From Apostichopus japonicus (Eukaryota > Echinodermata > Holothuroidea > Aspidochirotida > Stichopodidae): DNA of 64,000 bases. Each line of letters begins with the position of its first letter. Positions within the stretch are counted from its first letter, which is position 1. The position numbers and the translations under genes were made by a program. The stretch covers positions 15,666,310 through 15,730,309 of the forward strand of contig NC_092575.1 of assembly GCF_037975245.1 (NCBI RefSeq). Reading direction: 5' to 3'. Below the pieces are notes generated by a model that worked only from the letters and a program-made list of their open reading frames with translations, ran no database searches and was not told where the DNA came from. Below, in pieces: positions 1 through 61,685 of this stretch.

Positions 1-2430
1 GTGGTTTATAATGTGACGACTATAAAAAGTATCAATTTGGTATGAACAAATTTATCTCTCAATTAAGGGGGCATACTCCTATTAGAGTCTATATCCATCC
101 CCTCAATTGTTCTTCTTCAGGTAAGTGCCAACAAGCAGCGGAGAACATCTTTTTTGACCTGTTATCAATCATAATCTAGTTTTTTGTGGCTTGCATGTTG
201 GAGAACATGAATGGAAGTACATGTGGTGAGAAAATTGGGTCAATTGAGGCAGTTTTAGACCCCTTTAGGCTTCCCAGGAGTAGCGTAGGAAAACTGTTTA
301 CCACTGAGTGAAGAGGCTTGTTTACAAGTGACGAAAACTTCTGGCTCGAATAGCAAAATATCTACATGGTCATGATACAGAAAATTGTTAGTGCCATGAA
401 AGGCCAACTTGTCAGCTATCCGGTGATAGGTAGCATTGAGCTAGTGAAAACTTCTATCTAGACTTAGAGACCACATCACTTTTGTGATTTAGTGTGTAAG
501 TCAATGGGGCTTTTAATGGGTGTATGCTACTTTAAATATAAGGAACAATCTGTGATATACAGTGCACATTATGCAATCAATGAAATAACCACAGTACGTA
601 AAGACATACAGAAGTTGTGGCGGAATGGTTAGGGCACTGAACACAGGATTCCATGATCGTGGGTTCATGTACCAACCTGGTCGATACGTATGTATCTTTA
701 ATGAAGACACTTAATCTCAATTGCCTCTCTTCACCTAGGTGTATAGGGTACCCTGGGAGGTAATTAAAGATATAGCATTTGCACCGCTTTATGGCTGCAA
801 TGATATGGGATGTCCCCTGGGGAACATGTAGATGTAGCTAACCACATTGAGCATAATGTCTGATATGTGTTACCAAGGACCATAGATAGTGTTAGGTAAA
901 TACTATGCCAATGTTGCAATATAAATGGCTAATTTACATTACACTTACAGAGTGTGGCTATATGTTACATACTTAACCAAATGTCTTTAGGCCTTTGTTA
1001 CTTGACCACACTGTATGTCAAAAGTGAAAAAGGAAGGATATTTTTTGTGTAATGCAAAGAGATAGTTCACTTGAGTATTCAGCATTGATTTATAGAAAAA
1101 CTGTGGTGAGTCATAAACCAAAATTATGACAAATAATTTCTCAGCAGAAATTGTAGCATATACGTACACATAATACCGCACACCGGTTATATTCAATAAT
1201 GCACACCGGTCATACTACTAGTATGCTATAGTGCATGCCTAAACCCCACATAAGTGTAGTGCATAAGATCATTGTTTGTGTACTTGCGCACACCTTTGGG
1301 ATCAAGCAAAGTTCAAATTATCAGCAAATGATGTTCGATATATCGGGCAAGTCTTTAATTTGGACTTCAGTGTACTTGGAAAAAATTACAATCATTAAAT
1401 GGGGTCAGTGTGATTGAATGTGGGGACCTCATTTAAAGTGTACCCCAAAAAATTGACCTAGAAGGTAAGTTTCTACCATTCAAGACATAGCATATAGTTT
1501 GTGATAAAGTACTTCTAGAAATATTTTAACTACTTTGTTTTCTGTTCCACCCTAGTGTTGCTTCAAAGATAATAACATATTCAACTTGCATGTTCTGCAA
1601 TAATATTGTACCATCACATCTCATGGTCAGAAACTCAGAATACTATCACTTCCAAGTTCATAAAATGACTTATATTATGCTTTTGTTTTAAATGTAGTTG
1701 TCAGATGTTGTTAGACATAGAGATTTAATCTCTGGTCAATGGTTCTCTTTTAAGCTCACTTTTTTGTTTAGCTTGTCATGGTAATATTTTTATTTATCCT
1801 AATTCGAGATGATGATTTATAAGGATATTTTCTGGCCCTTTTAACAGCTAAGGTCATATAGAGCTACTGAAGCCTTTTTATACCATTTGATTTGACATGG
1901 GGTATTATTTTTATAAATAAATTATAAATAGTTATATGATATATTATTTTGTGTATATTAAATACATGTTATGTATATTTATATTTATATATTAATTAAG
2001 ATAATTTATTTGGCTAAAGTCCTATTTTTATATTTGAGCTGTGTACTCGCAAACTTTCCCTTTATCTGTCTGTCCACATCTTTTCCATGCTGCTATTTTG
2101 ATGAAACTGATGGAGCCCATAATGATGCATGATCTAATTGTTTGAAAACTGTTGAACACTGCCAACTTAGGAGCGTTTCAAAGTAATCCCATGAGTAGTC
2201 TCAAGATGTTTTATTGGAGAAGATTTTGACAATGTTGTAAAGATAAGTTTTCCCAATTGTCCAATAAATATATATTTTAGTTTTAAATGTTCTTAAACCT
2301 TTAGTGTTTGTTACTGTTCTTTATGAGATGAATTTTTAATGGAATGCTTATTTGTCACATTTTGCATTAATACTGAATGTTAATAAAAATTACCATGAAA
2401 CTTACAATGTGTGTCACTTTCTCATTTCTT
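1..2430 (+). repeat. Left arm of ~5 kb imperfect palindrome
   Basis: The sequence from base 1 recurs as its reverse complement ending near 5009. The outer 150 bp differ at about ten positions when aligned by eye. Homology runs inward to about 2430. This arm carries about 140 bp (near 1660-1797) that the other arm lacks. It also contains a tRNA-headed SINE (611-930) that the other arm shares at the mirrored place, so the SINE predates the inverted duplication. The arm may extend upstream of the window. No protein-coding gene was recognised in it. Confidence 0.95.
611..930 (+). repeat. tRNA-headed SINE (family A), copy in left palindrome arm
   Basis: A tRNA-like head has an A-box-like stretch (GGCGGAATGGTTAGGG) and a degenerate B box (GGGTTCATG). 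It is followed by the shared family body (CTCAATTGCCTCTCTTCACC, then a 'gggtaccctgggaggt' type stretch). The same body occurs at 59155-59470 and 61069-61500. It is mirrored in the right palindrome arm. Confidence 0.8.
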
Positions 2431-2667
2431 AACTAAAAAGTACTTAATCGTAAACTAGTCTTGTGACCTAAATAAGTAGTCACAGTTGCAATGACTAATA
2501 TTTTTGGTCACTGGACTAAGCTTTGGTCGATAGAGGCATCGTAGTAGGACTAATTTTAATTAGTCAGAAAACTCGATTTAATTAGTCACAAAACTAATGT
2601 TATATAGTCAAATGACTAGAAGAAACTGGTCGATAGAGGCATCGTTGTGACTAATTTTTTTTAGTCA
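2431..2667. repeat. Palindrome centre: GACTA/TAGTC-rich spacer with direct repeat
   Basis: The non-palindromic centre between the two arms is dense in GACTA and TAGTC pentamers. It contains GGTCGATAGAGGCATCGT twice, about 104 bp apart (near 2526 and 2629). Each copy is followed by GACTAAT...TTAGTC, which can form a small hairpin. A block with the same pentamer grammar occurs at about 7070-7195. Function unknown. Confidence 0.85.
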
Positions 2668-5009
2668 TATTGAGATAGTGACACAAATTATAAGTTTCAT
2701 GGAAATTTTTATTAACATTCAGTATTAATGCAAAATGTGACAAATAAGCATTCCATTTAAAAGTCATCTCATAAAGAAAGGTAACAAACACTGAAGGTTT
2801 AAGAACATTTAAAACTAAAATAAATATTTGTGGGACAATTGGGAAAACTTATTTTTACAAAATTGTCAAAATCTTTTCCCACAAAACATCTTGAAAATAC
2901 TTAAAAATATGGGATTACTTTTAAATGCTTAGCCATTAAGTTAGCAATGTTCAACAGTTTTCAAACAATTAGACCCCCTGATGACCTATTCCTACAATTT
3001 CTTAAAGACCCTTATTGTGCACTGACCATGCATCATTATGGGCTTCATCAGTTTCATCAAAATAGCAGCATGGAAGAGATACGGACAGACAGAAAAAGGG
3101 AAAAATTGCGAGTGCACAGCTCAAATATAAAAATAGAAGTTTAGCCTATATTAATTAATATTTAAATATAAATATATATAACATATATTTAATATACACA
3201 AAATAATATATCATATTTATAAATTTATTTATAAAAATAATACCCCATGTCAAATCAAATGGTATAAAAAGACCTTGAGTAGCTCTATATGACCTTAGCT
3301 GTTAAAAAGGGCCAGAAAATATCCTTATAATTATCATCTCGAATTAGGAACTTGGAAGTGATATTATTATGAGTTTCTGACCATGGATGTGATGGTACAA
3401 TATTAATGCAGAACATGTAAGTCGAATATGTTATTATCCTTGAAGCAACATTAGGGTGAAACGGAAAACAAAGTAGTTAAAACATTTCTAGAAGTACTTT
3501 ATCACAAACTATAAGCTATGTCTTGAATGGTAGAAACTGACCTTCTAGGTCAATTTTTGGGGTACATTTTAAATGAGGTCCCCACGTTCAATCACACTAA
3601 CCCCATTTAATGATTGTAATTTTTTCCAAGTACACTGAAGTCCAAATTAAAGACTTGCCCGATATATCGAACATCATTTGCTGATAATTTGAACTTTGCT
3701 TGATCCCCAAGGTGTGCGCAAGTACACAAACAATGATCTTATACACTACACTTATATGGGGCTTAGGCATGCACTATAGCATACAAGTAGTATTACCGGT
3801 GTGCATTATTGAATATAACCGGTGTGCGGTATTATGTGTACGTATATGCTACAATTTCTGCTGAGAAATTATTTGTCATAAGTTTGGTTTATGACTCACC
3901 ACAGTTTCTCTATAAATCAATGCTGAATACTCAAGTGAACTATCTCTTTGCATTACACACAAAAATATCCTTCCTTTTTCACTTTTGACATACAGTGTGG
4001 TCAAGTAACAAAGGCCTAAATAATGCATTTGGTTAAGTATGTAACATAGCCACACTCTGTAAATATAATGTAAATTAGCCATTTATATTGCAACATTGGC
4101 ACAGTATTTACCTAACACTATCTATGGTCCTTGGTAACACATATCAGACATTATGCTCAATATGGTTAGCTACATCTACATGTTCCCCAGCGGAGATCCC
4201 ATATCATTGCAGCCATAAAGCGGTGCAAATGCTATATTTTTTAATTACCTCCCAGGGTACCCTATACACCTGGGCAAAGAGAGGCAATTGAGATTAAGTG
4301 TCCTCATAAAGATACATACGTATCGACCAGGTTGGTACATGAACCCATGATCATGGAATCCTGTGTTCAGTGCCCAAACCATTCCGCCACAACTTCTGTA
4401 TGTCTTTACGTACTGTGGTTATTTCACTGATTGCATAATGCGCACTGTATATCACAGATTGTTCCTTATATTTAAGGTAGCATACGCCCATTAAAAGCCC
4501 CATTGACTTACACACTAAATCACAAAAGTGATGTGGTCTGTTAGTCTAGATAGAAGTTTTCACTAGCTCAATGCTACCTATCACCGGATAGCTGACAAGT
4601 TGGCCTTTCATGGCACTAACAATTTTCTGTATCATGACCATGTAGATATTTTGCTATTCGAGCCGGAAGTTTTCGTCACTTGTTAACAAACCTCTTCACT
4701 CAGTGGTAAACAGTTTTCCTACGCTACTCCTGGGAAGCCTAAAGGGGTCTAAAACTGCCTCAATTGACCCAATTTTCTCACCACATGTTCTTCCGTTCAT
4801 GTTCTCCAACATGCAAGCCACAAAAAACTAGATTATGATTGATAGCAGGTCAAAAAAGATGTTCTCCGCTGCTTTTTGGCACTGACCTGAAGGAGAACGA
4901 TCGAAGGGATGGATATAGACTCTAATAGGAGTATGCCACCTTAATTGAGAGATGAATTTTTTTCATACCAAATTGATACTTTTTATAGTCGTCACATTAT
5001 AGACCACAA
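2668..5009 (-). repeat. Right arm of ~5 kb imperfect palindrome
   Basis: This is the reverse complement of 1-2430 with scattered substitutions and indels. One indel is an extra ~53 bp around 2978-3030, absent from the left arm. The mirrored SINE lies at about 4080-4396. Homology to the left arm stops at 5009, where the left arm meets the window edge. The true outer end is therefore unknown. Confidence 0.95.
4080..4396 (-). repeat. tRNA-headed SINE (family A), copy in right palindrome arm
   Basis: Mirror copy of the SINE at 611-930. The head begins at 4396 on the minus strand (GTTGTGGCGGAATGG) and the 'GCCTCTCTTTGCCCAGGTG' body follows. It was duplicated together with the arm. Confidence 0.8.
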
Positions 5010-6936
5010 CAGAATTCTATGCAATTATCATTTTTGGTCCATAAAGATGTCTTTTCAGAGATTTCAGTATGCACTGTGCAGTGTGTAAATACACATGATA
5101 TGGGCAATACTGTGTAAGCAGTAACCAGGTCTACGTCTGCAACAACATTTCCAGTCACCAATTTTGATAAGCTTGACCAAGTTGGGTGCATTTATGAATT
5201 CTTGCAGGTTTTATTGGTATCCGGATCACAGTCCACTTGGTCTCGTCTGGCTTGCCATACCTTCAGAAACATCATCCAGAGAAGGGTCAGCAGGGAGGGC
5301 TTTTTCGTCTCTGGCTCTGAAATGTGATGAAAACTACTTTTGTTTAGCTCAGCCGGCTGATTCCTCCCAAACTGACCTACAGGACATACCCCAATGTATT
5401 CCTAAACTGTTTGGAACATGTTAAACTGATATTGCCTGTCACTCCAGTGCAACTGTTAAGTTACTAAGAATAAGAGAATTAACTTGAAGGTGTTCTTTGC
5501 CAAAACTGGATCATAGGGATTTGTAAACCACAGCCTAACTGTAACAGTATGTACAGTAGTCTAAAGGAAAGCTTACTGAAATGCTATCTAGATACACAGT
5601 TCACCTCAATAACATATCCAGTCCATTTAAAGGTTCATGCATAGGTTGTTACAATATATTAAAGACAGGTATTGGGGACAAGAGGTAGATAGGGGGCATA
5701 ATTTGTGATAAAACATTCAAATTTGTTGCTCGTCAAAGAACAACAATGTCAAATTACCTTATTCTCCATGGGTGGCAAGCACTGGTTCCTATAGTTACTA
5801 CAGTAGATCTCCCATGATGTATCAGGATATCTATTTCTGCTGTCAGAGTTGTTTGGAATTTGTTGTTACCTCATCTAACCAGTTGAGTCCATTGATACAA
5901 CAACCATTCAAAGTATATAGCTGTGAATGCTGAGGACTTGGCACATTATCTTTCTCTGAAAATTGACAAACAACAGAAAATTTATGATAGGCTGAGTAGG
6001 CTCAAAACCCCTTGATGCACATATGCAGGAGCAGAAAATGCATACCATTGTGGATTATTTGCTAAATAAGACTCAAAACATTCTCTGTCCAGGGTATTAG
6101 CACTCAGCAGCCACTCCACTTAAGATACAGAACCCTACAACATTGTGCTACAGCTGGTGTAGACTTGGTCTAGGAAGTAGGATACTAACATAGCGCCACT
6201 TACGGCCACTATGAACCTTAGGCCTAGGCCTAAGCTAACAACATTATGGGTATTTCATGCATTGAAACTGAGTTTTTGTCCTTAGTTTAACACATGGTAC
6301 TTCCAACTTTAGCAAAAATATCCTAAAATAAGAGTACCATATACTTAAGACTACATGAGCAGAGTGTAAGTCCCACACCACAGGCGCTCGTAACATTATA
6401 GAATATAGGCCTAGGGCCTAGTGTACTAGCTAATAATACACATTTATATAAAATATGTCATATAAGTGTGTATTACTGCTACTACAGTACTATTCATCTA
6501 CGAGCGCATGTGGGCTACACTAGGAAGACTAAGCTCCTACTAATCCTAGTCTAGCTTCGTCCTAGCGTTAGCAACAGTTTAGCTTACTAAGGCCTACCGT
6601 TATAATTTTACCCATACTTTCCAGCCTAACATATCGCCGATATTCAAACCTTCCTTGAACATTATGTCAATTGTTTCAATTATTATTTACTAGAATTTCA
6701 GTTGTGATTGAACTTACCTAACTGACGACAATTTGAAACTGCTTCTGACAATTTGTTAAATGATTAAGAATCTTCTCATTTTGTTGATAGCCCTGTTCTA
6801 TCTGCAGTTAGGCAATGACCGCAATGTACGACGTACCACGTACCACGTACGTGCATACAGTATACATGTAATCGCCGGTCGTCGTCTGATTTCTGGATAT
6901 CTGATCAGCTGAGCACACGGTATTCTACGGTACGAT

Positions 6937-6965
6937 GATTGGATAAAAATAATGACGTCATTGGT
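6937..6965. promoter_or_regulatory. CRE palindrome between two inverted CCAAT boxes
   Basis: TGACGTCA (6953-6960) is a full cAMP-response element. ATTGG (inverted CCAAT) lies at 6938-6942 and 6960-6964. This combination is typical of animal promoters. The nearest transcript-like feature is a minus-strand segment ending in a GTAAGTT donor at 6718, which would fit a gene running leftwards. That gene could not be assembled. Confidence 0.45.
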
Positions 6966-7069
6966 CAAAGCTGAAGGTTATAGAAAGTAAACAAACAGAA
7001 GACTAGAACATTCTCGTCACGCTTACATACATGACATGCATAGTGAGTGTCAAAAAAGTTCGTACAAAT

Positions 7070-7195
7070 TTATGTGACTAATTTATGTTAGTCGCGCGAC
7101 CATGCAAATTGGTCTGCAACTAATGAATTGGTAATGACTAGCTAAATCTAGTCACTGTGACTAGAATTTTGCCATTCGTGACTAACTAATATTTA
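7070..7195. repeat. GACTA/TAGTC-rich block resembling the palindrome centre
   Basis: GTGACTAATTTATGTTAGTC, CTAGTCACTGTGACTAG and several further GACTA/TAGTC pentamers cluster here. The grammar matches the centre of the 5-kb palindrome (2460-2665). It may be a related mobile-element end; no target duplication was identified. Confidence 0.5.
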
Positions 7196-10100
7196 CAGTG
7201 CACGCCCCTACCCCCTCCCCCTTAGGGAGAAGGGAGTTTAGCGTAGTTTCGATCATAGATCACATGCACTGTACATTACATAACATAATATAACTGGGTT
7301 TTACACAACTCAGTTATTGTATCCCTCCTGGACATGATATCTTGGTAACGTTACGAATATCCTTCTTATGTAATACATGTGAAAGGGGGGGGGGGGTAAA
7401 CTGGTACACAGGTACACAGGTACACAGGTACAGCAACCACACATATACGATCTTGCCTATATAAAATGAACCCAACTAAATGTCAAAACGTGAGGGACAC
7501 GATGTATTTATCCTCTTCCGTTTTCGTTAGAAATCTCATAAAAAGTTTCGTTATTTCTCAAAGCATCTGTAGGGCAAAGTTCACTATGTGGTAACAAAAA
7601 TCATGAAATCACTTGTATGTATAATACTATAAGGGCAAAATATTATAATCGATACACCAGATATATCTGTTTGTTTGTTCATATTAGGTTTTTTTTAAAT
7701 GTTTATGGGTTTTTTAGGGGGGGGGGTGTAGCATCGTATATGGTGACCTCTACATCTATGTCATGTTTTTAAAAGTGTTTACATTGCCCTTTCAACCTGT
7801 GCATTGATGTCCATTTTACCCACCAACTACCAACCTCTCTATACCATCACCATGCAAAGATGCAAATTGCAAATGTAAGCCTATCCATACTTTCGAACAG
7901 AATATAAAATTATTTAAAACCAAGATCAGGTCTTGTAAACTAACAAAGAAGATTCTCTTTATAAACGTATTAAAGTGGGTACAATATTATGACATTGTCT
8001 TTATATATAAGAAACTAACGCATTGACGTATTGTTTTCATTTGTCGCTGTGACTTCTAAACATAAAAAGCTTATCTCATTTTATGGTTGAACAAATGTGT
8101 ATTTGGTTATTTGGTCAAGTCAGGTTTTTTGAGTTAAGAAGTAACAACCAAACCGGTGTGACATGCTGGTATTGTGAAATATTTGGTTAAATTGGGAATG
8201 CGGTTTGGAAATGCACTTTAGGAATGTTTATGGGGGGAAATTATTATTCAGAATTATATCTTACTTGGAAATCTTCCGGAAACAATTATGAGTAAAGTTA
8301 GCCATTAGTAATAATATACACATATGCAAAGCTTAATATGATTAGTTTGATCTTACAGTTTCCATTAAGCATTGACTTGTTGTGTTTGAGATCTTAGACT
8401 TTAAGCCTCATTGAAGTTTGCATAGCCGATTAAAGTACTAGAGGAAAATAAATCCTGTTTCTACTCTTTAAACTGGTTATTTTCTTGCTTCATTATGGTC
8501 TTAGGCTGCCTCTCGGAACATTCCAATATTCAAATTGGTATTCGTTTTTGGAGATCCGAAACATAACGGAACACTGTCGAAAACAAATTTCAGTTTTGCC
8601 GAAGCTTTAGCTTGCCACCCATTATAATATGATAGATGAGCAAATAAACAAAATGAAAAAAATAGTCACGAAGCGACATGTCCCCACTGGGTTCTCCCTC
8701 CATGGGGAGTTAAGACTTTTTTATTTATTTCAAAAGATACTTAAACAAGTTCAGAAAACCATATCTAGCGTTGGGAACATGATATTCAGGTAGGGGTTTC
8801 AACTAGAAGTGTGAAAATATCGAGATATCAGTTTAAGGTATTAAGAGACTTCGCGTCATGTATAGACGTGAAGGTGATTCCTTGTTTGTTATGTATAATA
8901 TATTTTCCGTGGTCTCCTGTCAGTCTTCTGATTGAACATACTCTATAGATGTTTCTACCATTTGCCTTCCATAAAGGGTTATCAGTGAAGGGCTAAGCGT
9001 CTTTATCGTTGTGGGAATCTGAAGAGGAAATGCAAAGAAAGGGAGCGGGAAAAAGCGATATATGATCAAAGTTAGTGAAATATTTTATCGAAAAAAAAAA
9101 TGATGCAGAATGATATAAACGAGAATATATTGTTTCAGAGAGACTACTACTTTATATACAGTCAAGAAATGTCATAATTGATTTACCAATCGATATTTCT
9201 TAATTTATTTTATCATTTTGTTTTACAAACAAAAGGCGAAGAGAATCCGCTATTCTTTTATGTTAACTGGATGTTTGTTATGGTGATAGTATGATTTCAA
9301 TCGTGTCTGCCCAGATTCTAAAAAAAAGGTCTTACAATTTGGAATGATATATGAGCACAGAACTCTCCCTGATTCTTCTTCATTGGTTTCCTTAAGAATT
9401 TCTTGCCTATAGGTGACAGGTTGAAACTATTCAGGGGTTGTTTTTGTTAATTAGGTTGGATTTAATTGTCTTATGGGATGTCTAATTTGTCAAGAAGAAG
9501 GTTGCCTTGACCTGACTTTTGATGGTGAATGATTTTGACACTGTTTGACTTTGGAAGACTCAAATTTGTTATGATCATGTTCAAAAGGGTGGTTATTATC
9601 GTTTAGTGTGACCTTTTTGTTGAGGTTGAATTTGTAGTTGCTGTTTATGAGATCATTACCCAAAAAGACAAACAAACCGCTTTAATGATGTGACAACTTT
9701 TTCAATAAACCACAAGCCAGGTCAAACGTCAGTGATAACACACGAAGCCTTTGTAAACTTAGACACAAAAGCTTTTGCTCTGTTCTCATGTTGCAGTATT
9801 TAGCAAAGGACTCAAGGAGTACAAAAAATATATACAGAATGTCAGGTAAATTATAAATATTTACAAAATAATAATATAAAAAATCAGTCCAGTTTCATCA
9901 TATATGGTCATACGTGTACGGCGCCAAGTTTTTACTTAGTAATTTAATGTCCTTTTTTTACTATTTCTCTCCCCCCCCCCCCCGTCCCTGGGAAAAGTTG
10001 CCCAAGTTTTGTTAATGCAACAAAGCGCACCTTTTCATAAATTAGAAAAAGAAGAAACACTGTGCCATTTTTGTAGTAAAAATGGTTCTCTAATGTTGAA

Positions 10101-12709: not shown

Positions 12710-20085
<7,376 letters not shown>

Positions 20086-23521: not shown

Positions 23522-23889
23522 CAGTGGCGTAGGAAGGTACTTTTGAGTGGGGGGGCTGAAGACTGATGGCCGGCCTGGGGGGTCTAAGGGGAGGGGGTTC
23601 CCCCTCCCCTTAGACCTGGAATTTTTTGCATTTCCAGGTGGCCTCAGATGCAATTTGGTGCAATATAGCCACACTTTAACACCCACTCCATTTTGTAAAC
23701 TTAATTTTGTATTTTCACCTGGCCTAAATGCAATTTGGTGCTCCAAATGAGATTTTTTTTTCTCATTTGGAAATGAAAAAGGGGTTTTCTGACTTGCGAA
23801 CCGGGGGGCGGAATGATACTTGCGCCCCTCCACATTTTTCACTGGGGGCTGGCGCCCCCCCCCCCAGCCCCCCGGTTCCTACGCCCTTG
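23522..23889 (-). mobile_element. hAT-like MITE, copy 2, with exact 8-bp TSD
   Basis: A 368-bp element of the same family as 13447-13809 in opposite orientation. Termini are CAGTGGCGTAGGAA and CCTACGCCCTTG. The target duplication GATCCCAC lies at 23514-23521 and 23890-23897. The interior shares the 'ggcctcagatgcaatttggtg' type core and ends in G- and C-runs. Confidence 0.93.
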
Positions 23890-24121
23890 GATCCCACTAT
23901 GAATCTCCATGAAGTAAATGCGTTTTTGAATTACTTATTTTCTTCCAAGGAATTGAAGATTTTGAGCACCTCCTATATACTCGGCCAGTGCCAAAGAAAT
24001 AAGTAACAATTTGTCTGAATAATAGTTACTTGTAACTGATGTGGTAATTAGTCAGTAAAAGTATGCTATAATTGTTAATACAGTCTATGTCCGACTCAAG
24101 TGTTAAGGAAAGTACTAATCT

Positions 24122-24410
24122 ATGTTTTCCCTACCCCCTTCCCTTAATCATCTCTTTGTCCCTCTACTGTTTATCTCCTACCTCTCCTCTTGCCCTCTTG
24201 GTTTCTTTCTTTCTTATATCCATCCCTTGTCTACTAATCCCCTTACATCTATCTCTTTGTGTTCACCCTGCTCATTAACCTGTCTGTATTCTGTGCGTGT
24301 TTATGTCCCTTCTGTTACTGTTACTTGTCATTTAGCCTTTGAAGAAGATCCTGCTAGGATCGAAACGTCAGACCAACTTACTTTTACACATTCTCTTACA
24401 CAGGCCTCTC
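24122..24410 (+). repeat. CT-rich dispersed repeat with hammerhead-like motif, copy 1
   Basis: A pyrimidine-rich block ends in TTTGAAGA, a short stem (GATCC/GGATC) and GAAACGTC. It is homologous over about 280 bp to the minus-strand copy at 42285-42690. The layout resembles the hammerhead core (CUGANGA, stem II, GAAA), here with the first C changed to T. Penelope-like retroelements are known to carry such ribozyme motifs. Assignment to that class is inference; no reverse transcriptase is present. Confidence 0.6.
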
Positions 24411-27354: not shown

Positions 27355-27680
27355 CGGCGCTCACTCCGGCTGCCCGCCGTAAGTTCGTGGATATTCGGCG
27401 CTCACTCAGGCTGCCCGCCATAAGTTCGTGGATATTCGGCGCTCACTCAGGCTGCCCGCCGTAACTTTGTGGATATTCGGCGTTCACTCAGGCTGCCCGC
27501 CGTAAGTTCGTGGATAGTCGGTGCTCAATCAGGCTGCCCATAAGTTCGTGGATATTCGGCGCTCACTCAGGCTGCCCGCCGTAAGATCGTGGATAGTCGG
27601 CGTTCACCCAGGCTGCCCGCCGTAAGATCGTGGATAGTCGGCGCTCACTCAGGCTGATGGTTTAAGTTCGTGGATAGTCG
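27355..27680 (+). repeat. Minisatellite, ~41-bp unit, about 8 copies
   Basis: The unit starts CGGCGCTCACTCAGGCTGCC and continues with CGCCGTAAGTTCGTGGATATT. Copies start at 27355, 27396 and so on, with a few base differences and one shortened unit near 27520. It is GC-richer than its surroundings. The last unit decays into unique sequence near 27650. Confidence 0.95.
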
Positions 27681-28252
27681 GGCTTAATTGCTTAAGACCA
27701 CGACTGATCAAGATCTTGTTAAGTTTAAGTCTCGTCGGCTTCAGTCGTAAAAACTGAATATGTAGCGTTTGCCCGACTGGTACAGTCGGTATAGTGTGCG
27801 GTGTTTCATGACTAGAACTGCAGAGTTATATATCACGGTGTATTCAATTTGTATTCAACCTAAGCGAGCTTCGATCGTTGACAGCAAAGTCAACGTTGTG
27901 TGATCCTGATCAGTCGGTCAGTGTGCGCAGGGTCAGTTGTAAGTCCATGGGTCTTAACGACAATCGAAAACTAGGTCACGTAGACCGAAAAGCGTCAGGA
28001 AGTTGTGATCAGGTGGGCAATATGCGGAGGGCTTTCATGGTTCGAATAAATAACTGTAGTAATGACAGCTTTTGTAATTCCCGAAACCCTAACATTTGCT
28101 ACAATATTTCAGCTATGTATCACATCTCTCTCTCCCTTTCTAGTGGTCTACATAACAGGCGTTATTGAGTGTTGGTCATTGCAAGAAGCAACATACGATA
28201 GTAAATTCGGACAGCTATTTAGCCTATATGTATGTATGCATTTTAGATCCAT

Positions 28253-33217: not shown

Positions 33218-45489
<12,272 letters not shown>

Positions 45490-50651: not shown

Positions 50652-50844
50652 TTTTTTTTTAAGGAAAAGTCGCCCAGGAAATAACCTGGTCACGAAAACC
50701 AAACTACCAAACGACTGATCCGCTCTCAGCCCAGTCCCCTTGCATCGGGACTGTGACTGTGTGATCATCGTCGGGTGTGCATCACCATTCCCCTCGAAAG
50801 GGAACAGATACTACACATGATCTTAGCCAAAAGGCCGAGAAGCG
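50652..50844 (-). mobile_element. U2-snRNA-headed retroelement with A-tail and 15-bp TSD
   Basis: On the minus strand the insert begins CGCTTCTCGGCCTTTTGGCT and continues AAGATCATGTGTAGTATCTG, the 5' end of U2 snRNA with one visible mismatch, including the branch-point-pairing GTAGTA. After CTGTTC it leaves U2 and enters a different structured body (CCCTTTCGAGGGG hairpin, a CAGTCCC/GGGGACTG hairpin, CCAGG/CCTGG stem). It ends in about ten A. AAGAGAATAATTTCT flanks both sides (50637-50651 and 50845-50859). There is no evident Sm site. This is a retrotransposed copy: either an snRNA-headed SINE or a U2 chimera. Confidence 0.88.
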
Positions 50845-51173
50845 AAGAGAATAATTTCTCATCCTGCAAGATTGACTAGATGTGATAAGGAAAATAACAG
50901 GACTTTTTCAATATGAAATAATTATAAAAAAAATTGAACTTGTGAACATAGTGAAATTGGGTAGAAGTGGATATAATTTATGTCTTTGCATGAATTTTAA
51001 TTTCTGTAGAACACTGGATTAGAAACATAACTTTCTTTAAATAATTACACGCAACATTTGAAGAAGAAAAATAAAGTAAACAAGAGTGCCACGTGTGAAA
51101 ATTTAGCATGAAACGTTTTATCTTTACAAAATGTCAGTGTTCTTCACCATTCTGTTTTGTCAACATATGAGGT

Positions 51174-57078: not shown

Positions 57079-60000
57079 ATGAAGCTCAAATTGTCAATGT
57101 TTGTATGGACTTGTATGCTGCCACTGTATACCAAGATGCTGGGTGAGTTGGGATAACAAATTATGCACGTGAAATGTCAAATTATATATGTTTCGTTATG
57201 GTATATTTATAGACGTTTCCGTGAGACAAGTTAGGTAATTATCTCTCCATATTCCCCCTCCCCAACCCCCCCCCCCCACCACTTGGTTTAATTCATGTCC
57301 AGTTCGATGGAGCTTTGGGACTTCCGTTGTTCTTAGTTTAACAAACACCCCTCCCCACCGCATGCGGCATCTGCCCCAGCCAACAAAAGAACTCGCCCCA
57401 TATTTTTGTTTATTACGAAGTAAAAAAATGAACAACATTATTTCTCACTAATGTCAAATGCAGCGCGTTCGTGTTTTATTTTATTTTGTTGTTGTTTATT
57501 TGTCTGTAAATTTGCATTGTTGAATCGTCAGAGATCTGCTATTCTTGTCTGTTAAGCTTCAGGGATATGTCCGTCTCCTGTGGGAAGTTCCGTTGACATT
57601 GTACTATTTATGGAAATTTCACATACCATTAGGCCTTAAGGCTAGCCTGCAGCTAAATAATATATTGATGCATAGCATTGTGATAATCTTGTGTGGATTC
57701 AGCATCATTTAATAACATTAAGCCTACCTTGTATTCAATAAAACACAGCGAGATAAGTATTGATTTAAGCTTGAATTCGGAATATTACGAATTATCAATC
57801 AATCTAATATACTTTATTGTGCACCCTTTGTAGGTTCTAAGTTATTCAATAAACCTCATCCTTTCCACAATTTGGTCAAAACTCTAACCGTGAGCCTCAT
57901 GCTGATTGCGTATACATATTAAGTTTGTACCTCCACTGAAATGTGTTGTCACCCTCTCAAAGCCCCGCTACTGGATTTAGCAGTATACTTGTTTACATGC
58001 ATCCAACTCTCGACCTTCTATGTCACATTTTGTTAATCTCTTTTCAGCCGTTCAGACTAGTTGCCTTTCTTCAAATATTAACGAGAAGCTTGCTGATTCT
58101 GTTCTAACGCACCCATGCGCAGGTCAGGCAATCTTGGTAAAGTCTCATGGAGTAATAGACGGGACCGAAGAAGGAATCCAAGATCACATAGCTTGCAATG
58201 GTAAAGTACAGTAGTAAACTTCTATTTCACATAGCTTGCAATTGTAAAGTATAATAGTAAACTCACATATCACTTTGATTGAGTAACATTGAATCTTTCT
58301 GACCCAGACATGTAATTCGATTTGGATATCATGTACCGATACATGGAGTTGGCGACCATGGTCCCAATGCCGCCCCTCCCCCCCCCCTCCCCTTGCGCAC
58401 GCGTCTGACGTTCGTTTGTCACTTTTCTTTGACGTATTTTGCTTCAGTTTGACCATATATTTAAGTATAAACTAAATCATTTACCTATAGTCACACAGGC
58501 TTGATTCAGTTACGCAACAATTATCAAAATTAGATAGTTTTGTTTATTTCTGACATCATATCAAACTATATTATAAAAAAATCGAAAAGTTGTAAAAGCT
58601 GCATCCTCTTTGAGACAAATATCGTATTTTCATTTATATTAAATGGTAATATCTGTTCATATGTCGGAGTTTTGTCACACTGCGAGTTCGTCGGGCTCAT
58701 TTTTTTTATTCCTTTTTTTTTTGTTATTATAAATCATGCTTACTTGTCATGTCTGACGAAGCAAATACTAGATAAGCCAAACTTTAACTGCAGTGCACGT
58801 ATCCATGGTCAAACGTGCGAGGTTTGTATTTAATATCAACCATTTTAAAGTCCTAATATAACTGATTGTTTGTCGTAGTAAGTAACTTCAGAATTTCTCT
58901 CAACAGATTGTTCGGCATGGAGCGCCGTTCCGGCGATGGCTAAGTTATATATGATACCAGATGTAACCAACTATTTCGAAGATTCGAGACAAATTTGTCA
59001 AAAGTGCGGAGGAGATGTTGCAGTCTTCAACGTGTCAGACGTTGTGGTAAGAAGACAGAAATCATTAAAAAATTATTTTGCTTGCATGTTTGAAACTATA
59101 CGTAGGTATTGTAATAACAATATATAGGCCTAGGACTCGTTAAGTGTGGTGGCCGAGAGCGTGGTGGCCAATTGGCTAAGGCGTCGGACTCGCGATCCAA
59201 GGATTGCTGGTTCTATTCATGCCTAGTTCATTGCGTTGTGTCCTTTGCCAAGATGCTTTATCTCACTTGCCTCTCTCCACCCAGGGGTTAAATGGGTACC
59301 TGTGAGGTGACTTGTCATTGGGCGCAGTATATAACTGCTGCGGACTGGAGGGATTGTCTCTGGGACAGGTTACCATTGACCAGGGGTGATATGTAACGTC
59401 TGTAAAGCGCTTTGAGACCTATCGCTGGTGTAAAGCGCTATATGAAAATCAAATATTATTATCATTATTTTCATTATTATTAATATTGGAATTGAGCAAG
59501 TATTCCCTTACACGTGAAAAGTTGGTGAAATGCCAGACGGGGAAACGCAGTGTAAAACACTAAGTCATGTGATTCTTTAACCGCAAAATACTAACATGCG
59601 TCATCCCTTATTGTTCAGGGTGAAATGACTGCCATTACCAATGCAATTGCCTGGAATTCTGTTGATATTATCTGGATTGGAATTAAGCGGAAGTCGGGAC
59701 TAAACCGAGATCAGTTCCAATGGTTGGATGGACGAGATTTCTTGTTAACTGACATGTACGTATTTTGTTATTATTACACTTGCCCCAATCGCCATGGTTT
59801 CATAATATATATAAAACAACTTAGAAATTCAGAGTAAATAACAGTATATCAATAACAGTTAATATTGCTTGTGCATAGTTATATTTTAATTTTGGCAATT
59901 TCAAACTTATTATTGATTTTGCTTTTGTTAATGACAAATCATGGAGCTGTTGTTGTCTTATTGATTACAGCCAATATGTGTAATCATGAAACAAGGTTTC

Positions 60001-61685
60001 GTTCGTTCAATCGATAATCATTATTTTCGAATGACGAAGCCAAAAATGCTTCAAATACTTCGGTATCCGTCAGATGAAGTATTACTGACGAAGGTTCCAG
60101 AGGGACCAAAATTTTCAATATATTTGTCAATTATGAGTCATATCTTATTTATAGATGAATGGATGGATCGATTGGTGGATACCATGGGCGGCGATCCTGG
60201 GGGATGGGGGGTTATATCCCCCCTATGAAAATGGGTGGAGGGGATGAAATACACTATATCCCCTCACCCCCCCCCCCACCAAATGCCAGGGATAAGAATA
60301 TTTTCATGCCTACATTTATGCATTATCGTGAATGTATGGCTCTATTTTAGCTTCATTTCTCGCCTACCATAAACGCAGTGCGATCTTTTCAAATAAAGCG
60401 TCTTTATAAAGCAAGAATAGTTTACTGTAGGCTTCATCGGCACAACTATTCTTTTGTTGTTATATATAACAACAAGCGGTATTATTGCGCCCACGGTATT
60501 GATATAGTACATATATGCACCCTCATAGTATTCATATAGGCCCTATAACTTTGTGTAATTGTGTATTGCATGTGTATAGGCCTATAATAGCCTGCATGAG
60601 GCTATTTTCTTCATCGAATAATATAAAAGAGCTCTCGAACATTCTAACGTATAGCGCCTGAAACAAGATTGACAGGGGCAATGAACAATTTTCCCAAAAT
60701 AACACCCGAAATTGGATCCTGATTATGAGATAATTCGGACATGATATCCCTATCTTAAAGTTGGGTGTATTCCGCTTGGAAACCTCGGGAAGTGCCGTTT
60801 CCGGCCATCTAGAGGGTTTGTAAATCCCAAAATTTTCTTGTACGCTTCGCACCAACCTATGGTGGCGCTACTCTTAGATAGTCAACAAGAGCATATCCCC
60901 CCCCCCCCCCCACTCGGAAGTACGGATCGCCGCCCATGGTGGATACGTGCCCTATTTTAGCATTTGGTCCTGGTTAATAATCTTTTCATTATGAGTGACA
61001 ATTATTATTAGTAATTGTTAAGCAATTATTTGGCAAATGTAAGGTGACTAGTACGTAGAAATATCAACGAGCGTTGTGGTCAAGTGGTTAAGGCAGTGGA
61101 CTGGAGATCTAAGGATTACAGGTTCGAGCTGTGGCCAGATCATTGCGTTGTGTCCTTATTTGGGGCAAGGAACTTTATCTCCATTGCCTCTCTTCACCCA
61201 TGTGTATAAATGGGGACTTGCGAGGTAACTTGTTAACTAGTTGCGTGCGCCGGTTTAGGGCTGCACCCTATGGGAAGTCCCCCGGGGACACATGGTTATG
61301 GTGCACTGTGGTGCCCCAGGAGAGATTGATTGAATTGTGCACACTTTGGTGTGTAGGTGTGACAAGTTACCAATGACCAAGGCTAAGTTGTACACGCTAT
61401 GGTACATTTAGCGCCTTTGAACAATTTCTGTTGATTTTGGCGCTACATAAATGTCTTCTGATTGATTGACTGGTTGATTGATTGATTGGTTGATTTACTG
61501 ATTTATTCAATGATTGATTATTTCTGCTTTCTCCTTGTCCCAACAGCTCTTGGGACCCTGGTCAGCCGAATGATCTGAATGGTAATCAAGACTGCCTTAC
61601 GTCATATCGATCGTTCTCGTGGCGTATACATGACCACAGCTGTAAGGAATATTTCCACGTACTTTGTCAAAGGGATCCTGACTAA
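57079..61685 (+). CDS. Secreted C-type lectin (5 exons, 210 aa)
   Basis: Exons: 57079-57142, 58048-58200, 58907-59046, 59619-59755, 61547-61685; phases 1, 1, 0, 2 all match, giving 633 nt with stop. Residues 1-22 form a hydrophobic signal peptide, so the product should be secreted. Residues 23-72 are a short module with three Cys that I do not recognise. From C74 a C-type lectin domain follows: YFEDSRQIC, CGGDVA, WIGI (138-141), WLDG, QPND (171-174) and closing cysteines at 181, 197 and 205. QPN occupies the sugar-specificity position (EPN usually mannose, QPD usually galactose). The usual WND is replaced by WRIHD, so calcium-dependent sugar binding is uncertain. Introns 3 and 4 carry two SINEs and a hAT MITE. 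Ligand unknown; a pathogen- or self-glycan role is only a family expectation. Confidence 0.9.
59155..59470 (+). repeat. tRNA-headed SINE (family A) in lectin intron 3
   Basis: Head with A box (GTGGCCAATTGGCTAAGG) and degenerate B box (GGTTCTATTCATGCC). The body includes TTGCGTTGTGTCC and a TAAAGCGCTTTGAGA...TAAAGCGCTATATGAAAA tail, ending in an ATTATT repeat. This is the best-preserved family A copy in the window. Confidence 0.9.
60183..60938 (+). mobile_element. hAT-like MITE (second family) with exact 8-bp TSD in lectin intron 4
   Basis: A 756-bp element with 15-bp terminal inverted repeats CATGGGCGGCGATCC / GGATCGCCGCCCATG. It is flanked by GTGGATAC at 60175-60182 and 60939-60946. Subterminal G-rich and C-rich blocks resemble the other MITEs. 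No transposase is encoded. Confidence 0.94.
61069..61500 (+). repeat. tRNA-headed SINE (family A variant) in lectin intron 4
   Basis: Head GAGCGTTGTGGTCAAGTGG with B box GGTTCGAGC and the shared TTGCGTTGTGTCC and CATTGCCTCTCTTCACCC body. A different 3' end contains GGCGCTACATAAATG and a GATT repeat, ending about 45 bp before lectin exon 5. Confidence 0.88.

Follow-up and report, generated by a model that had tools for sequence, protein, structure and literature searches.

Mu killer of maize consists of inverted transposon copies able to produce a hairpin RNA against their own family. Long inverted arms with a short middle part also characterize the foldback transposons (FB, sea-urchin TU and Tetris). 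The locus analyzed here lies in a 64,000-nucleotide stretch of the sea cucumber Apostichopus japonicus (hereafter the window, C15:15666310-15730309 of a 671.6-Mb assembly). It resembles Mu killer in that its two transposon copies stand inverted to each other and might give rise to hairpin RNA, and it resembles foldback transposons in its arms and middle part. It differs from the latter in that its arms are two separate elements, with no target duplication for the whole unit. It also differs from Tetris, whose arms contain internal tandem repeats and whose duplications are 8–10 bp long (PMC4079207), whereas the family here makes 2-bp ones. A further described group is the CMCT clade, for which PMC12730594 gives CA..TG termini, 2–5-bp duplications and C(2)C and H(3)H motifs.

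Our reading, to which we assign a probability of about 0.93, is that the structure derives from two independent tail-to-tail insertions of one EnSpm/CACTA-type transposon that were fused by a deletion (Table 1). On this reading it is neither an ancient nor a special hairpin element.

Table 1. Parts of the fused pair, in window coordinates
Feature	Position	Strand	Remarks
Left transposon copy, in-window part	1..2673	+	Starts upstream at C15:15664033 with CACTGTAAACAT
139-bp left-copy segment	1658..1796	+	Also in L034 and L019 at 99.3%; lineage marker
SINE-like sequence in left copy	593..828	+	Head reads as tRNA-like; mirror at 4179-4414 in right copy
Left copy, 3' terminal ~250 bp ("centre" of the initial annotation)	2425..2673	+	Same end in other copies
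Junction of copies	2671..2673	.	3-bp microhomology TGA, left 3' end / right interior
Right transposon copy, inverted, 4,530 bp	2671..7200	-	5' terminus at 7200, reverse complement CACTGTAAATAT
52-bp right-copy segment	2976..3027	-	In 16/20 fetched copies
Right copy, 5' subterminal region and terminus	7075..7200	-	Second GACTAA/TTAGTC cluster of the window

Within the window, the arms align in inverted orientation in three blocks (E = 0 to 3e-98): 1-1663 with 5007-3344 (95.7% identity), 1797-2134 with 3349-3024 (90%) and 2133-2424 with 2973-2671 (88%). The near-palindrome described by the initial annotation is thus real, and its arms do differ by several percent: a global alignment of the window part shows 101 substitutions, 61 of them transitions and 40 transversions, over 2,265 aligned bases (4.5%). 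This alignment reaches base 1, and the outer limit is therefore invisible from the window alone. With 60 kb of upstream sequence added, the repeat extends on the left to window -2276 (the base preceding 1 being numbered 0) and on the right to 7200, a total of 9,477 bp (C15:15664033-15673509). The left copy measures 4,950 bp and the right 4,530 bp, and the identity between them, block by block with gaps counted, is 92.1%, 96.0% and 82.3%. The inverted repeat itself accordingly stands, but the arm length of about 2.4 kb does not; at their full lengths the copies are, as had been claimed, far longer than a MITE.

A query made from the left arm matches at least 53 places in the genome; as 40 of 3,119 candidates were scored, family counts are lower bounds. 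With the outer end as query, 20 of the 40 scored copies stop at an identical base and 38 have their outer end at 244-274 of the query, the two others being the window locus and its tandem duplicate. The exact terminal repeat CACTGTAAACAWTAGTTAGTCA, an inverted repeat found at both element ends and beginning CAC, has 83 matches, spread over 20 contigs, while its reversed form, used as a control, has 0. Fifty-eight of these matches form 29 face-to-face pairs, most of which (25/29) span 3,490-4,904 bp; the others span 5.5, 6.5, 8.5 and 13.5 kb. Family copies read CACTG...CAGTG. Among 20 copies fetched from elsewhere, 17 are single arms with both ends, CACTGTAAACATTAGTTAGTCACGA and TATTGACTAACTATTGTTTACAGTG, and they run from outer end through arm to "centre", which is oriented in them as it is beside the left arm. 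Of the 20, 18 could be scored for target duplications (L020 and L030, in which no 3' end was found, were excluded; L025 and L026, both included, share flanks). Matching 2-bp duplications flank 15 of the 18, versus 60 of 306 cross-pairs, the exceptions being L023, L034 and L037; a match extends to 3 bp in one copy and to 4 bp in none. Each arm of the window locus is one copy of this dispersed DNA-transposon family, and the suggestion that the structure is transposon-related holds.

Like EnSpm/CACTA (CMC) elements, the family has termini of the CAC..GTG form, duplicates 2 bp of its target and bears clustered subterminal motifs; we filed it as CACTA-like. The left copy's terminal 250 bp contain 9 motifs of the TTAGTC/GACTAA type (maximum 4 in 60 window shuffles), and in the 64-kb window the four hexamers cluster twice, once at each element end. 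A relative at C17:6653212-6667173 (13,962 bp, with family ends and a TA duplication) carries a 642-aa transposase-like ORF; its CRFC motif is of the C(2)C form and its HYMIH motif of the H(3)H form, as in the CMCT clade. The differences are that the termini are CACTG rather than CACTA, that the match of this ORF to Pfam Transposase_21 (tnp2) is weak and below the curated cutoff (E 0.035), and that no transposase was found in the window copies. A Pfam search with 10 ORFs of the arm region gave 0 matches, Rfam returned 0 families at gathering score for the arms (four lax matches in 1-6000 fall far below cutoff), and pattern scans of genome-contig and viral-contig collections found 0. We infer that the short copies are moved in trans by the 13.96-kb relative. 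The family also recalls Transib/ProtoRAG, in that its CACTGT resembles the CACTATG heptamer and the relative's ORF matches the RAG1 profile marginally, below cutoff (E 0.065). ProtoRAG target duplications, however, are 5 bp according to PMC8289069, whereas the family's are 2 bp, and a 5-bp duplication of this type was not found (0/18 copies matching over 4 bp).

The ~240-bp centre is not a spacer but the left copy's 3' terminal part, recognizable as the same end in other copies; a MITE at the centre was rejected for that reason. The left copy lacks the final 19 bp of its 3' terminal repeat and runs on, at a common TGA, into the interior of the right copy, which lacks its 3' ~250 bp. Variant letters beside the TGA in the right copy also occur in L018. 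The flanks of the whole 9.48-kb unit (..acg on the left, cac.. on the right) show no matching target duplication. A paralogous gene unit that lacks the pair, at C15 ~15.652-15.654 Mb, aligns to both flanks and has 417 or 967 bp separating the flank points; its identity of ~92% and its internal repeats keep it from serving as a clean empty site. A second version of the locus, 99.0% identical over 10.4 kb, lies 39.7 kb upstream (C15:15621945-15676067 region), within a tandem duplication that spans window -44365 to 8055 and on. The duplicate contains a second fused pair and an extra 3.2-kb internal duplication (99.9%), and the TGA junction occurs three times in the 90 kb examined. When the 20 fetched copies are considered, the fused two-arm structure recurs only in this tandem duplicate; a single one of the 20, L033, is accompanied by another copy in inverted orientation, 1.9 kb off and with ends intact. 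Two tail-to-tail copies at C17:4.395-4.397 Mb, 1.9 kb apart, retain their facing ends, the state one would expect ahead of such a deletion.

Phylogenetic analysis placed the two arms in different lineages. The tree on Q860-3030 comprised 17 sequences, namely the two window copies and 15 of the 20 fetched copies (L020, L023, L028, L030 and L035, which are partial, were left out), and trees of three further segments comprised 21, 10 and 20. The right copy is sister to L018 (C4) in all four segments (support 0.989, 0.976, 0.919 and 0.960), and the left copy is sister to L034 (C17) in three (1.000, 0.970 and 0.846), the exception being Q1-770; left and right are sisters in none. Distances on Q860-3030 are 1.9% for left-L034, 2.0% for right-L018 and 3.1% for left-right. 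By raw distance, the right arm on Q3040-3850 is nearest to L021/L031 (2.6%), ahead of L018 (2.9%), and the left arm on Q3860-4525 is nearest to L019 (2.0%), ahead of L034 (2.1%). The indels of about 140 and 53 bp noted earlier were correctly sized (139 bp left-only and 52 bp right-only) but are not arm-specific: among fetched copies, the longer segment is in L019 and L034 only, and the shorter is absent from L019, L034, L020 and L030. Both are family variants that mark lineages. Divergence between the arms rises inward, from 59/1,652 (3.6%) in the outer part to 42/613 (6.9%) in the inner part (Fisher p 0.001), because the inner part of the left copy falls within the L019/L034 lineage in the trees; hairpin decay or conversion was rejected as its cause on this ground. 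The label "ancient" had rested on arm divergence, which dates the split of two transposon lineages and hence gives no age for the palindrome.

The surroundings and the interior of the copies yielded several separate observations. Neighboring exons encode matrixin, hemopexin, CUB, trypsin and sulfotransferase, and tandem matrix-metalloproteinase-like units (matrixin and hemopexin exons, 85-96% alike) occupy window 12.9-20.3 kb and the upstream 60 kb. Host-gene exons were considered for window 5192-6900 and rejected, this segment being inside the transposon and common to a tandem repeat. The interior of the short copies (Q852-2729; window ~4472-6349) shares ~90% identity with a tandem repeat of 2,268 bp that forms arrays at C15:13.80-13.88 Mb, C16:32.97-33.00 Mb and C8:30.83-30.87 Mb; it gave 0 Rfam matches, and at L030 an array begins near a transposon end, across a 100-N gap. 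Diverged copies (65-67%) of the SINE-like sequence lie at window 61050-61294 and 59161-59308, and the 13.96-kb relative carries part of it. Elsewhere in the window are a short U2 snRNA match at 50770-50846 (minus strand), which covers the entire model within 77 bases at 51.2 bits and is probably a pseudogene with a deletion, and a 41-bp tandem repeat at 27355-27688 (~8 copies, G+C above surroundings). Two other inverted pairs, 13446-13809 with 23522-23890 (91%) and 24119-24391 with 42279-42543 (85%), are probably other dispersed repeats.

Other origins for the structure can be weighed against these results. The initial annotation had offered a giant foldback transposon, which would have moved the whole 9.48-kb unit with its 4.5-kb arms as one. 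Long inverted arms are as in foldback elements, and at both outer ends a genuine transposon terminus points outward, yet these ends have no target duplication in common, copies elsewhere are predominantly single arms, each bounded by two ends and a 2-bp duplication of its own, and the arms are not sisters; we give this origin next to no weight. An assembly chimera, of two haplotypes or from a fold-back read, deserves thought in marine invertebrates, in which high heterozygosity is common, but it is scarcely credible for a window inside a 29.3-Mb contig, with a junction that is found three times at a locus whose tandem duplicate is 99% identical, and with arms of different lineages that have different flanks. 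The annotation had rightly set aside a simple assembly fold-back.

It had also proposed an old inverted duplication, in which one copy would have been duplicated by fold-back priming at a break or by template switch and its arms would have diverged later. The arms are adjacent and inverted with 3-bp microhomology at the axis, and such a mechanism is established in yeast according to PMC10622511. Duplication predicts sister arms, unless conversion rewrote one arm over its entire length; instead, each arm falls in the trees beside a copy from a different contig and shares its 139- or 52-bp segment with that lineage, which makes this origin highly improbable. Aberrant (alternative) transposition, in which the ends of two separate elements are used together and the inner ends are lost, is known from other DNA transposons and would account for the missing ends being the facing 3' termini. 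We consider it unlikely here, as the elements are broken 19 and ~250 bp from their ends rather than at terminal nucleotides; internal breakpoints together with microhomology are better explained by end-joining. The junction probably originated by deletion.

Under the preferred reading of two insertions fused by a deletion, two non-autonomous CMC-group copies would have inserted independently, in opposite orientation and ~1 kb or less apart, close to tandemly arrayed matrix-metalloproteinase genes. The two 3' ends, which faced each other, would then have been lost by deletion (19 bp from the left copy and ~250 bp from the right), along with any DNA between the copies, and the ends would have been joined at the TGA. 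Tandem duplication would have placed a second version of the locus ~40 kb away. This is the order of events that we infer.

A transcript across both copies, if made, would form long dsRNA, the potential siRNA source that the initial annotation had in mind. It is conceivable, but in our analysis very unlikely, that the fused pair is transcribed across its junction and that a hypothetical hairpin RNA with ~4.5 kb of near-complementary arms silences the other family members in trans. If true, this would be a Mu-killer-like control locus in an invertebrate, and one silencing source would have become two when the locus was duplicated in tandem. The locus is a case in which two diverged transposon copies can be mistaken for an ancient giant palindrome; such cases can be told apart by their termini, by target duplications and by sister copies. 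The analysis delimits a CACTA-like family in this genome, together with a coding relative, and the fused inverted pair is a natural candidate locus for hairpin-silencing tests.
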